From positions 5,287 through 45,242 of the forward strand of contig PLNE01000098.1 of assembly GCA_003141695.1 (NCBI GenBank): 39,956 nucleotides of DNA, read 5' to 3'. The notes below the pieces were generated by a model, which was not told the origin of the DNA, ran no database searches, and saw only the letters and a list, made by a program, of their open reading frames with translations. This stretch comes from Candidatus Dormiibacterota bacterium. GTDB lineage: Bacteria; Chloroflexota; Dormibacteria; Aeolococcales; Aeolococcaceae. A program made the translations under genes and the position numbers. The first letter of the stretch is position 1. Each line of letters starts with the position of its first letter. Shown here one piece after another: positions 11,934-16,260 of this stretch.

Positions 11934-12121
11934 CGGCGAGCGGAGGCGATATCGGGTGCTCCCCTGAGAGATGCAGGTCCGGTTCCGGGATACTCCAGGG
12001 ACTCCCCGGATGGTGGTCGCGAGCGACGAGGTCCACGCTGGGCAGGCGACCGAGAGGCTCGGACCGGCGTCAGGACCGCCGCCACCGCCTCCGGATGGTC
12101 GCCAGATCCAGGAGATCGAAG

Positions 12122-13735
12122 ATGGAGAAGACACCCGGCCAGCAGGGCCCCGAGACGTCCGGCTCGCCAGCCGCTGACGAGAACCCGGTCGGCGAGGCCG
12201 CAACTCCGCCGGAGAGCGGGTCGGCCCCCCCGTCGGGCGGGTCGGTACCTCCGTTCGGTGGGACACCACCCCCGCGCCGCCTCTATCGCCTCCGGAACAA
12301 CCGCATGCTCGCGGGCGTTGCCTCCGGCCTGGGTGCCCACTTTGAAATCGACCCCGTCTGGGTTCGGCTGGCGTTCGTCGTGCTCACCTTCTTCGGCGGC
12401 ATCGGGGCGATCCTCTATCTGGCCGGGTGGGTGCTCATGCCGGCCGTTGATTTCGCTCCTCCGATGGGGACGATGCAGCCGCCGGTCCGTCGCCTCTACC
12501 GGCTCCGCAATGACCGGGTCATCGCCGGGGTCGCCTCCGGGCTCGGTGCCCATCTCGACGTGGACCCGATCTGGATCCGGCTGGCCTTTGTCGTGCTCGC
12601 CTTCGCCGGCGGGCTGGGGGTCATCCTCTACTTCGTCGGATGCGTGGCGATGCCCCTCGTCGACAACATCCCCCCTGGTGGGGCTCCGCCTGGCTGGATT
12701 CCCCTCGCTGGAACGGTGCCCTCTCACCGTGGCCGGGGCGGGGGCACCGACCTGCGCATCATCGCCGGTGCCGTCTTCCTCATCGCCGCCGTCTTCGTGC
12801 TGGCCGGCACCTTCGACTTCCACGACGCCGGCCTGATCTGGGGGGCAGCGCTGATCGGCATCGGCCTGCTCTTCCTGATCGGGGACCAGTGGCCCTCGAG
12901 ATACCCGGGGGGAGCCCCCCCCGCTCCGTCCGGCCCCGTGGATCCGGCCGGGTACGCATTCCCGGCGAGCGCAGCCGGGGAGGTGCCCTCCGCGTACCCC
13001 CCTGCGGCGCCCGCGGGGCAGGCGTACACCTCCTCCCACGCGCCCTACACGCCGTACACCACGCAACCGGCGTACGCCGCGCCCGGGTATGCGGCGCCGG
13101 CAGCGTGGTCCGGGAGCGCATACCGATCCGGCGGCCTGCGCCTCGGGTCGGTGGGCCTGGCCGTGGTGATCCTGGCCGTCGGCGTCGCCCTGCTCCTGCA
13201 GAGCGCGGGGGTCATCCACCTCACCGCCGAGATGGGCTTCGGCATCCTCCTCCTGGTGCTCGGCCTCACCCTGGTGATCGGGGCGCGGTTTGGACGCTCC
13301 CCTCTGCTGGTGTGCCTCGGCATCTGCCTCCTCCCCTTCGCGGCGGCTGCGGTGCTCGTCCCGGAGCCGCTCACAGGCGGGGTGGGCCAGATTCGCTACG
13401 CCCCCCAGACCCTCACCGCCGTGCAGCCCGCCTACCACCTCGCTGCGGGACAGATCACCATCGACCTGACCACCCTGGAGCTGGGCGACCAGAACCTCAG
13501 GGTCGCCGCCAGCGATGCGGTGGGGCAACTTGTGGTCGTCGTTCCGCTGGGCACCACCGTCGATGTGACGGCCAAGGTCGGGGCGGGAGAAGTGAATCTG
13601 CTGGGGCGGACCGACTCCGGCGTGCAGTTCACCTCGGTCGCCAACTCGGTGGCGGGGGTGGAGCCCAGCGGGACGCTCACGCTGGCGTTGAGCGTCGGCT
13701 GCGGGCAGATCACGGTCGAGACCGGAGCACAGTGA
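12122..13735 (+). CDS. Double-PspC, LiaF-like membrane protein
   Basis: A 537-residue membrane protein. After a Pro/Ser-rich cytoplasmic start it has two tandem PspC domains, each beginning RRLYRLRN and containing RLAFVVL (about residues 56-115 and 122-180). Then come hydrophobic pairs, a Pro/Tyr/Ala-rich linker (about residues 265-330), two more hydrophobic segments, and a C-terminal beta-rich domain (YHLAAGQITIDLTTLELGDQNLRVAASDAVGQLVVVVP) like the LiaF C-terminal or DUF4097 fold. LiaF-type proteins inhibit their cognate kinase until the envelope is damaged, and the divergent PspC kinase is the natural partner. The ATG at 12122 has an AGGAG site eight bases upstream; the nine codons before it were not included. 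Confidence 0.88.
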   Translation: MEKTPGQQGPETSGSPAADENPVGEAATPPESGSAPPSGGSVPPFGGTPPPRRLYRLRNNRMLAGVASGLGAHFEIDPVWVRLAFVVLTFFGGIGAILYLAGWVLMPAVDFAPPMGTMQPPVRRLYRLRNDRVIAGVASGLGAHLDVDPIWIRLAFVVLAFAGGLGVILYFVGCVAMPLVDNIPPGGAPPGWIPLAGTVPSHRGRGGGTDLRIIAGAVFLIAAVFVLAGTFDFHDAGLIWGAALIGIGLLFLIGDQWPSRYPGGAPPAPSGPVDPAGYAFPASAAGEVPSAYPPAAPAGQAYTSSHAPYTPYTTQPAYAAPGYAAPAAWSGSAYRSGGLRLGSVGLAVVILAVGVALLLQSAGVIHLTAEMGFGILLLVLGLTLVIGARFGRSPLLVCLGICLLPFAAAAVLVPEPLTGGVGQIRYAPQTLTAVQPAYHLAAGQITIDLTTLELGDQNLRVAASDAVGQLVVVVPLGTTVDVTAKVGAGEVNLLGRTDSGVQFTSVANSVAGVEPSGTLTLALSVGCGQITVETGAQ

Positions 13736-14034: not shown

Positions 14035-14073
14035 TCCACTCTCGGGCGGTGGACCCTGCTACGATCCGCCTCG

Positions 14074-14160
14074 ATGTTCGCGATCGCGCCGCGGTTCTAC
14101 TTTTACTTTGAGTACGCCACATCGGCCCCTGGGCCGGTGCGGGTGCTGCTGAGCAAGTAG
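14074..14160 (+). CDS. Phe/Tyr-rich leader peptide of the DAHP synthase gene
   Basis: A 28-residue frame starting ATG at 14074 reads MFAIAPRFYFYFEYATSAP and ends at TAG 14160. Four Phe and three Tyr codons are concentrated in residues 2-14, with FYFYFEY nearly uninterrupted. It lies 85 bases upstream of a gene for the first step of aromatic amino acid synthesis. This is the hallmark of ribosome-mediated attenuation: stalling at Phe/Tyr codons when the charged tRNAs are scarce would change folding of the following RNA. A TACGAT hexamer at 14060-14065 could be a -10 element, which would make the leader transcript nearly leaderless. The role is inferred from composition and position. Confidence 0.75.
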   Translation: MFAIAPRFYFYFEYATSAPGPVRVLLSK

Positions 14161-14168
14161 TCCTGCGC

Positions 14169-14206
14169 CGAGATCCCGGGAGGCCGAGCGGCCGACCCGG
14201 ATCTCG
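14169..14206 (+). promoter_or_regulatory. Predicted attenuator hairpin after the leader peptide
   Basis: Beginning nine bases after the leader stop, CGAGATCCCGGG (14169-14180) pairs with CCCGGATCTCG (14196-14206) with one bulged base, capped by an inner GGCC/GGCC stem (14182-14193). CCGGGCCCGG at 14211-14220 can offer alternative pairing. No T-run follows, so control may work through ribosome access or Rho rather than intrinsic termination. Confidence 0.55.
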
Positions 14207-14245
14207 CGAACCGGGCCCGGTCCTCACACGACACTGGAGGCACCG

Positions 14246-15352
14246 ATGCTCACGGATCTGCTCAAGCCCATCACCTCGTCACCGGCGCGGCGTCGCGTCA
14301 CCATCGGGGGCGTTGTCTTCGGTGGTCCGGCGGTCCCGGTCATCGCCGGGCCCTGCGCGGTCGAGCCGGAGTACGTGACTCACGCGCTGGCCATGCGCGA
14401 TGCCGGCGCCTCGATGCTGCGGGCCAGCATCTTCAAGCCGCGCACCCGTCCGGACGCCTTCCAGGGGATGGGCGAGGAGGGCCTTGCGCTCGTCGAGAAG
14501 GCCAGGACGCTCACCGGCAAGCCGGTGCTCGTCGAGCCGCTCTCGGTCGAGCACGTGGAGATGCTGACCGGCCGGGTCGACGCCTTCATGATCGGTGCGC
14601 GCTCGATGCAGAACACCCCCCTGCTGCGTGCCGCGGGCCGCTCCGGCCTCCCGGTCGTGCTCAAGCGCGGGATGGCCGCCACCTACGACGAATGGCTTGC
14701 CGCCGCTGAGTACGTGCTCGCCGAGGGGAATACCCAGGTCATCCTCTGCGAGCGGGGTATCCGCACCTTCGAGACGGCCACCCGCAACACCCTCGACGTC
14801 TCGGCTGTGCCGGTGTTGCGCGAGCGCACGCCGCTGCCTGTGATCGTCGACCCGAGCCATGCCGCGGGCCGTGCCGACTGGGTCCCCGCGCTGGCGCTGG
14901 CGGCCGTGGCCGCCGGGGCTGACGGCCTCCTGATCGAGTCCCACCCCGTGCCGGCGGAGTCCTGGAGCGACGCGGCCCAGGCCATCACGCCGGAGACCCT
15001 CGAGGCGATCATCGCCGGGGCCGCGGTGCTGGCGCCGATGCTGCGCGGTCACCAGGCGGCCGAGCTCGCCGAGCACCGCCAGATCATCGACTCGCTGGAC
15101 CTCGCCCTGGGAGCCGTGCTCCAGAGTCGCGCCGGGGCGGTCGACGCCGTGCAGCGGGACAAGCGCCGGACCGGTCTGACCGTCCGTGACCGCAGCCGCG
15201 AGCAGGAGGTCATCGCCCACGTCGCCAGCCGGGTGCCGCGTCTCTCCGCCGAGGCCGTCGGACGGGTGATGACCGCGGTCATCGACGGCTGCGTGGAGGC
15301 GAGCGAGCGCTTGGCGGTGAGCGCCGACGAGTCCGGTACGCTCTCCGATTGA
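14246..15352 (+). CDS. aroF: Bifunctional DAHP synthase / chorismate mutase
   Basis: A 368-residue enzyme joining phosphoenolpyruvate and erythrose 4-phosphate to DAHP, the entry step of the shikimate pathway. The N-terminal 260 residues are a type I beta (B. subtilis-like) DAHP synthase: VIAGPCAVE, LRASIFKPRTRPDAFQGMG, VEPLSVEHVEML, IGARSMQNTPLLRAAG, VVLKRGMAATYDEWLAAAEYV, ILCERGIRTFE and VIVDPSHAAGR. The C-terminal 90 residues (HRQIIDSLDLALGAVLQSRAGAVDAV..DRSREQEVIAHVAS) are an AroQ-type chorismate mutase, usually the feedback-sensing module. The ATG has TGGAGG five bases upstream. A leader peptide and hairpin precede it, and its stop overlaps the next gene's start. Confidence 0.93.
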   Translation: MLTDLLKPITSSPARRRVTIGGVVFGGPAVPVIAGPCAVEPEYVTHALAMRDAGASMLRASIFKPRTRPDAFQGMGEEGLALVEKARTLTGKPVLVEPLSVEHVEMLTGRVDAFMIGARSMQNTPLLRAAGRSGLPVVLKRGMAATYDEWLAAAEYVLAEGNTQVILCERGIRTFETATRNTLDVSAVPVLRERTPLPVIVDPSHAAGRADWVPALALAAVAAGADGLLIESHPVPAESWSDAAQAITPETLEAIIAGAAVLAPMLRGHQAAELAEHRQIIDSLDLALGAVLQSRAGAVDAVQRDKRRTGLTVRDRSREQEVIAHVASRVPRLSAEAVGRVMTAVIDGCVEASERLAVSADESGTLSD

Positions 15353-16260
15353 TGGGAGTCACCACGCAGACGGCGGCCATCGTGGTCGAGGAGCTGCGCA
15401 AGTCGTACGGCTCGCTGCATGCCGTGCGCGGGGTCAGCTTCAGCGTGGAACCCGGCGAGGTCTTTGGCCTGCTCGGTCCCAATGGCGCGGGCAAGACGAC
15501 GATCGTCGAGATCCTCGAGGGGTACCGCCATCGTGACTCGGGGAGAGTCGAGGTCCTCGGCGGCGACCCCGCGACCGGTGGCCGCGGCTTCCGCCGGCGG
15601 GTCGGCATGGTCCTGCAGGAGTGCGCCGTCGAGCCCTACCTCACGGTGCGCGAGGTGGTCGACCTCCACCGCGGCTACTATCCGAAGCCGCTCGCGACTG
15701 ACGACGTCATCGAGCTGGTCGGCCTGGAGGAGAAGTCCGGCGTCCGGGTCAAGAAGCTCTCCGGCGGGCAGCAGCGCCGTCTCGATCTCGCCCTCGCGCT
15801 GATCGGAGACCCTGAGCTGCTGTTCCTCGACGAGCCGACGACCGGCTTCGACCCGTCGGCACGGCGCAACGCGTGGGAGATCGTGCGCGGCATGCGCAAG
15901 CTGGGCAAGACCATCCTGCTCACCACCCACTACATGGACGAGGCCCAGAACCTCACCGACCGCGTCTGCGTCGTGAGCGCCGGGGAGGTGGTCCGGATCG
16001 GCACCCCTAGCAGCCTGCGCGCCGAGCGCGCCGAGACGAGGATCCAATTCGTCCGCCCCGACGCTGTCGCCGTGCCCAAGGTGGGCGAGGTCGTCCCCGG
16101 AGGCGAGGACGGGCTGATCGCGATGATCACCGACACGCCGACCAAGGCCCTGCACGAGCTGACCGAATGGGCCGTCGCCCACGGCCTCGAGCTGCAGCGA
16201 TTGGAGGTCAGCCAGCCGTCCCTGGAGGACGTCTACCTGGAGCTGACCGGCGATGAGTGA
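15352..16260 (+). CDS. ABC exporter ATP-binding subunit (first exporter)
   Basis: A 302-residue ATPase of the DrrA/CcmA-like class that drives ABC-2 type exporters. Walker A is GPNGAGKTT near residue 42, the signature LSGGQQRR near residue 136, Walker B LLFLDEPTTGFDP near residue 157 and the H-loop LLTTHYMDEAQ; a DrrA-type C-terminal extension ends with SLEDVYLELTG. The ATG at 15352 uses the last base of the aroF stop, so the two proteins are translationally coupled, which is an uncommon arrangement for a DAHP synthase. The permease follows with an eight-base overlap. The exported substrate is unknown. Confidence 0.92.
   Translation: MGVTTQTAAIVVEELRKSYGSLHAVRGVSFSVEPGEVFGLLGPNGAGKTTIVEILEGYRHRDSGRVEVLGGDPATGGRGFRRRVGMVLQECAVEPYLTVREVVDLHRGYYPKPLATDDVIELVGLEEKSGVRVKKLSGGQQRRLDLALALIGDPELLFLDEPTTGFDPSARRNAWEIVRGMRKLGKTILLTTHYMDEAQNLTDRVCVVSAGEVVRIGTPSSLRAERAETRIQFVRPDAVAVPKVGEVVPGGEDGLIAMITDTPTKALHELTEWAVAHGLELQRLEVSQPSLEDVYLELTGDE

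Follow-up and report, generated by a model that had tools for sequence, protein, structure and literature searches.

A predicted leaderless leader peptide that may place a DAHP synthase gene of Dormibacteria under aromatic attenuation

In the metagenome-assembled genome (MAG) of an uncultured Candidatus Dormiibacterota soil bacterium, the gene for a DAHP synthase fused to chorismate mutase is preceded by a short open reading frame rich in phenylalanine and tyrosine codons, and there is little doubt in our minds that this frame is an aromatic-sensing leader. How such a leader would work is less firmly placed: we think it probable that it mediates ribosome-dependent attenuation in response to aromatic amino acids and that the step controlled is translation initiation of the DAHP synthase gene. 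The window discussed throughout is the whole stretch of 39,956 nucleotides that was analysed.

An aromatic leader precedes the DAHP synthase gene

The original prediction, that a 28-codon frame rich in Phe and Tyr lies ahead of an aromatic entry enzyme, is borne out by the frame at 14074–14160, in which FYFYFEY makes up codons 8–14. The start codon of the enzyme gene, an ATG at 14246, is 85 nt from the end of this frame. The features to which the text refers are as follows.

14057–14065, + strand: extended -10 element TGCTACGAT, eight bases before the leader ATG; predicted transcription start within ~2 nt of that ATG
14074–14160, + strand: leader peptide ORF MFAIAPRFYFYFEYATSAPGPVRVLLSK, 28 codons, ATG start, no Shine–Dalgarno (SD) sequence before it; orthologous leaders in 26 genomes
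14076–14082, + strand: 5′ strand of outer helix P0, GUUCGCG; partner 14205–14211; group A only
14090–14102, + strand: 5′ strand of helix P1, covering codons R7, F8, Y9 and part of F10; partner 14155–14167
14095–14115, + strand: regulatory codon run F-Y-F-Y-F-E-Y, codons 8–14; this place is aromatic-rich in all relatives
14120–14139, + strand: leader hairpin CATCGGCC-CCTG-GGCCGGTG, directly 3′ of the aromatic codons; equivalent hairpin in other groups
14155–14167, + strand: 3′ strand of helix P1, holding the leader stop codon
14166–14207, + strand: post-stop hairpin P2, -29.8 kcal/mol, z -3.9
14218–14245, + strand: hairpin P3, CGGUCCUC/GAGG-c-ACCG, sequestering the SD
14236–14240, + strand: SD GGAGG of the DAHP synthase gene
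14246–15352, + strand: DAHP synthase (type I beta core) with C-terminal AroQ-type chorismate mutase, 368 aa, without the N-terminal extension of its paralog

Profile searches identified the enzyme as DAHP_synth_1 (5.6e-62) fused to CM_2, a type II chorismate mutase domain (2e-11). Its nearest named relatives, at 94–99% identity, belong to MAGs of Candidatus Dormiibacterota recovered from bog, fen and palsa samples, which places the window in that group. A drrA-like ABC transporter ATPase gene at 15349–16260, which matches TIGR01188 at 3.4e-72, below that model's cut-off, overlaps the stop codon of this enzyme gene (15350–15352). With its start so placed, the ATPase gene may share a transcript with the DAHP synthase gene and come under the same leader. 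On the other side, ending upstream of the leader, the frame at 12095–13735 encodes a membrane protein of the envelope-stress type, which has two PspC domains and is LiaF-like at its C terminus.

The leader probably begins at its own transcription start

The extended -10 element at 14057–14065 had been missed in the original prediction. Comparison of the 24 leaders that could be read directly brings out how strictly it is placed. All of them have TAnnnT ending 6–11 nt before the start codon, and in 22 it is a full extended -10, TGnTAnnnT; at RTG sites in the window the background frequencies are 0.4–0.5% for TAnnnT and < 0.1% for the extended form. Two leaders (L020 and L023) additionally carry TTGACA. 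An SD-like sequence before the leader start is absent in 23 of the 24. The sequence therefore has the arrangement expected of a leaderless leader peptide, a -10 box positioned for a predicted transcription start at the start codon together with the lack of an SD. From this fixed spacing and missing SD, we conclude that the leader is probably translated leaderlessly.

There is precedent for such an arrangement in Actinobacteria. The distance from the -10 element to the transcription start averages 6.3 nt in Streptomyces lividans, a species with several leaderless leader peptides for amino acids (PMC8079986), and ilvL of Corynebacterium glutamicum begins one nucleotide from its own transcription start (PMC11857589). 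The Dormibacteria leaders resemble trpL, leuL and ilvL of S. lividans (PMC8079986) and the leader of ilvBNC of C. glutamicum (PMC11857589) in that all start at or next to the transcription start behind a TAnnnT -10 and contain a run of codons for the product amino acid. They differ in that several of the S. lividans leaders and that of C. glutamicum ilvBNC are associated with actual or predicted transcription termination, and their targets are not DAHP synthase genes.

Aromatic codons are conserved across the class

Orthologs of the enzyme (E ≤ 1e-80) were found in 27 genomes of the class. One of these (G078) lies on a contig that begins inside the gene and was left out; the leader is present in all 26 assessable orthologs, which come from four families of the class. 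Identity of the enzyme to the protein encoded in the window runs from 99% down to about 54%. Twenty-four leaders were read directly and two, at contig edges (G024 and G030), were recovered by covariance model. The original prediction had named loss of the Phe/Tyr run or of the hairpins in close relatives as the outcome that would count against it, and no such loss was seen. Indeed, orthologs down to ~57% protein identity, across the four families, still have the leader start with its -10 box, the run of aromatic codons, the leader hairpin and an SD-covering hairpin.

The leaders fall into groups. Those most like the window's (group A) read RFYFYFEY, RFYFWFEY or RFYFYFIN; group B has -AR-YF followed by a CCAGCC/GGCTG hairpin, and includes HFYFYFY; groups C1 and C2 contain WFTF, IWRYFEFAF, VWTYWYSF and similar runs. 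Most leaders are lineage-specific versions of the run (FYFWFEY, RRYF, RFYF, IWRYFEFAF, VWTYWYSF), with Phe codons in every leader, Tyr codons in most and Trp codons in several. The pattern points to placement of Phe and Tyr codons at this site, with Trp codons added in several lineages. The Phe/Tyr attenuation originally predicted is thereby supported and is refined on two counts: some lineages add Trp codons, and sequestration of the SD is a likelier output than termination (below).

The orthologs further indicate that codon identity rather than peptide sequence is under constraint. Within group A the reading frame is maintained through the aromatic run and shifts after it between lineages: L005 has a 2-nt and a 1-nt deletion past the run, and L006 a 1-nt insertion. 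The peptide tails consequently differ (VRVLLSK, AGAALR, LGAAR) while the RNA GGGUGCUGC is invariant, the stop codon falling within a few bases. Frame shifts past the aromatic run with the RNA preserved fit an attenuator, not a functional peptide.

RNA structure of the leader

The whole leader of the window folds at a z of -4.1. P1, the hairpin that follows the aromatic codons and P3 at the SD recur among the leaders, as does the post-stop P2 in groups A and B. P1 pairs pre-aromatic or aromatic codons with the stop region, so that the codon run lies in strand 1. Over 18 related leaders, which are not independent tests, this duplex averaged -24.4 kcal/mol against -20.8 kcal/mol in shuffles (0 of 300 replicate means); in single group B sequences it is often no better than chance. 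The bulged hairpin noted in the original prediction is real and corresponds to P2. P0 is almost invariant within group A and so yields no covariation evidence. Covariation elsewhere is modest: cells changed on both sides numbered 12 against 7.3 in shuffles for group B and 2 against 0.3 for group A. Some of the changes in P3 and in the leader hairpin are compensatory.

P3 places the SD of the DAHP synthase gene within a helix. The unpaired probability of the window's SD is 0.01, compared with 0.28 in shuffles, and over the 18 related leaders, again not independent tests, it is 0.13 compared with 0.32 when the intergenic part is shuffled (0 of 100 replicates). Taken singly, SD pairing is strong in group A and in part of C2 and weak in group B, where the SD lies only partly in a hairpin and single sequences do not beat their shuffles. 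In one family of the class (L021, L022, L033 and L034) the aromatic codons are near-perfect complements of the stop region, as are GCGCUAUUUCG and CGAAAUAGCGC of L022; a near-perfect complement also exists between CUCGUCUCC and the SD GGAGACGAG.

We looked for the element that would switch P3. Helices competing for its 5′ (anti-SD) strand were no stronger than in dinucleotide shuffles (mean z -0.09), and when a ribosome was masked codon by codon in equilibrium folding, the SD of group A stayed paired at nearly every position. Apparent changes in SD pairing with ribosome position occurred in a few sequences only, for example L021 and L005. Any switch would therefore have to be kinetic, acting during transcription, or use other helices; and because a competing anti-sequestor does not rise above chance, the SD exposure that stalling would drive is a step that we infer.

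Occurrence beyond the orthologous leaders

Covariance models built for groups A and B (R1 and R2) confidently matched these leaders only, one per genome, and gave no convincing copy before other genes. Three weak R2 matches (E 0.0005–0.006) were set aside; two of these are reverse-strand matches at the leader loci themselves. Searching for the group B hairpin as a pattern, with 2 mismatches allowed, gave mostly background, no relatives were found among viral contigs, and no leader was found before the genome's own trpE (one locus). No Rfam leader, T-box or riboswitch covariance model matched the leader.

Dormibacteria often have two DAHP synthases (L178–L185), one N-terminally extended, for which no leader was found, and one unextended with an aromatic leader. 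The extension comprises about 100 residues, and no leader precedes the extended paralogs in the set scanned, which excludes the own-genome paralog L177. The isozyme with the leader may thus depend on regulation through its RNA where its paralogs carry an added domain.

Outside the class, in a more distant genome of the same phylum (L189 in G173, at about 650–960), a leader MSAGQNVYTMRFGFYFYYGFRIPVAVGGA stands behind TTGACA-TAGAAT. It contains FYFYY, has a leaderless appearance and is followed by GAGCGAGC...GCTCGCTC-CTGACTTTTT, a hairpin and T-run, before its own gene. Read by eye, that gene resembles a chorismate mutase of the AroH type, with a DAHP synthase after it. Whereas a hairpin and T-run lie past this leader, the last hairpin of the Dormibacteria form covers the SD; the distant leader is likely to be a transcriptional attenuator, that is, a transcriptional form of the same idea.

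Proposed mechanism and alternatives

In the mechanism that we favour, transcription would start at or within ~2 bases of the leader ATG and a ribosome would load on the 5′ end. When charged tRNA-Phe or tRNA-Tyr (or, in some relatives, the Trp counterpart) is scarce, the ribosome would stall on the aromatic run. It would then mask the leader hairpin together with the 5′ strand of P1, so that the RNA at the leader stop and beyond could rearrange. With aromatics plentiful, the ribosome would reach the stop codon, P2 and P3 would form and P3 would hide the DAHP synthase SD. A shortage of aromatics sensed by the leader would thus switch on the enzyme, with exposure of the SD as the likeliest route.

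The main competitor is a leader that senses aromatics but acts on transcription, P2 or P3 serving as a terminator that has no T-run and is Rho-dependent or non-canonical. The hairpins 3′ of the leader are GC-rich and stable, the DAHP synthase leader of a distant relative is followed by a hairpin and TTTTT, and an attenuator leader has been predicted at C. glutamicum aroF (PMC4046766). Against this, a scan of the window for a GC hairpin with T-run found no intrinsic terminator between leader and gene, and none of the 24 leaders read has a T-run, in agreement with the original observation that no T-run follows the hairpins. Terminator-like matches in the scan all lay inside the leader ORF, where they are driven by composition. 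Moreover, P3 overlaps the SD, whose pairing exceeds that of shuffles. We therefore regard control of transcription as unlikely, if still the most serious of the alternatives, and a classical attenuator of the trp/phe/his type was rejected because no terminator stands between leader and gene.

A nascent peptide that arrests the ribosome on sensing a free aromatic amino acid or other ligand, as TnaC does, would account for N-terminal residues that are constant within groups (MF-I--RFYF; -AR-YF), but the peptide varies widely between groups, which have aromatic codons as their common feature, and the region after the run is frame-shifted among L001, L005 and L006 with the RNA kept; we consider this improbable. 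Marginally less probable still is a small ORF that merely boosts expression of the gene behind it, through ribosome loading or reinitiation, without amino acid sensing. A role for leader uORFs in raising downstream expression has been proposed (PMC4833913), yet here the aromatic run stands consistently before an aromatic pathway enzyme in 26 genomes, and the gap from leader to gene start is 85–96 nt in most members of groups A and B. That the frame is a chance ORF in GC-rich intergenic DNA can practically be dismissed, plentiful as short ORFs are in the window. DNA encoding FYFYF occurs once in the genome's 3.1 Mb and nine times in 110 genomes of the class (once for a reversed-pattern control); seven of the nine matches are these leaders, at orthologous sites, and the other two (L120 and L123) sit within long ORFs. 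Aromatic codons are also confined mostly to the leader frame, with seven there and one in each of the other two.

Relation to known systems

The pairing in P1 follows the pheA, trp and his attenuators of E. coli, where the codon run is strand 1 and the stop region strand 2. The E. coli leaders are SD-initiated and end in an intrinsic terminator. In its proposed mode of action the Dormibacteria leader resembles the leaderless trpL and ilvL leaders and the LEU element upstream of leuA in Actinobacteria, a different phylum; the LEU element reads leucine rather than aromatic codons. It has a conserved pseudoknot, and its base stem joins the run of leucine codons to the SD itself (Seliverstov 2005, PMC1262725), whereas in the Dormibacteria leader the codons are aromatic and the SD pairs with a post-leader strand. 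We therefore rejected membership of the LEU element, as no leucine codon run pairs with the SD. For the phenylalanine and tyrosine genes of Actinobacteria, the same authors reported that RNA structures were not conserved (PMC1262725).

Two systems share the target. The predicted aroF leader of C. glutamicum, with Phe-Tyr-Phe (PMC4046766), is likewise an aromatic leader peptide before a DAHP synthase gene, although in another phylum; it is a briefly reported putative attenuator, and the likeness is drawn from its description. The uORFC-13-1 motif of Acholeplasma aroF (PMC8632094) is likewise a uORF with Phe codons but adjoins an intrinsic terminator; the Rfam-wide search gave no match to the window's leader, the motif's own presence in Rfam being unconfirmed. 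The literature searched contained no report of an attenuator in Dormibacterota, and the one paper to mention both the group and 'leader peptide' concerned secondary-metabolite potential.

Implications

More tentatively, and with rather less than even confidence in the whole, we propose a terminator-free, leaderless attenuator that is class-wide and reads the charging of Phe, Tyr and in some lineages Trp tRNAs together. It would exert translational control over the DAHP synthase that lacks the usual N-terminal extension. This isozyme would then be regulated through its RNA rather than through the protein part that it lacks, and related lineages of the phylum would use a terminator version. At least 24 diverged leader sequences with fixed promoter spacing provide a testable set. 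The leader yields a prediction about how Dormibacterota soil bacteria control entry into the aromatic pathway and, if its output is translational, SD-based leaderless attenuation would extend from leucine, as in the LEU element, to the aromatic amino acids and to another phylum.
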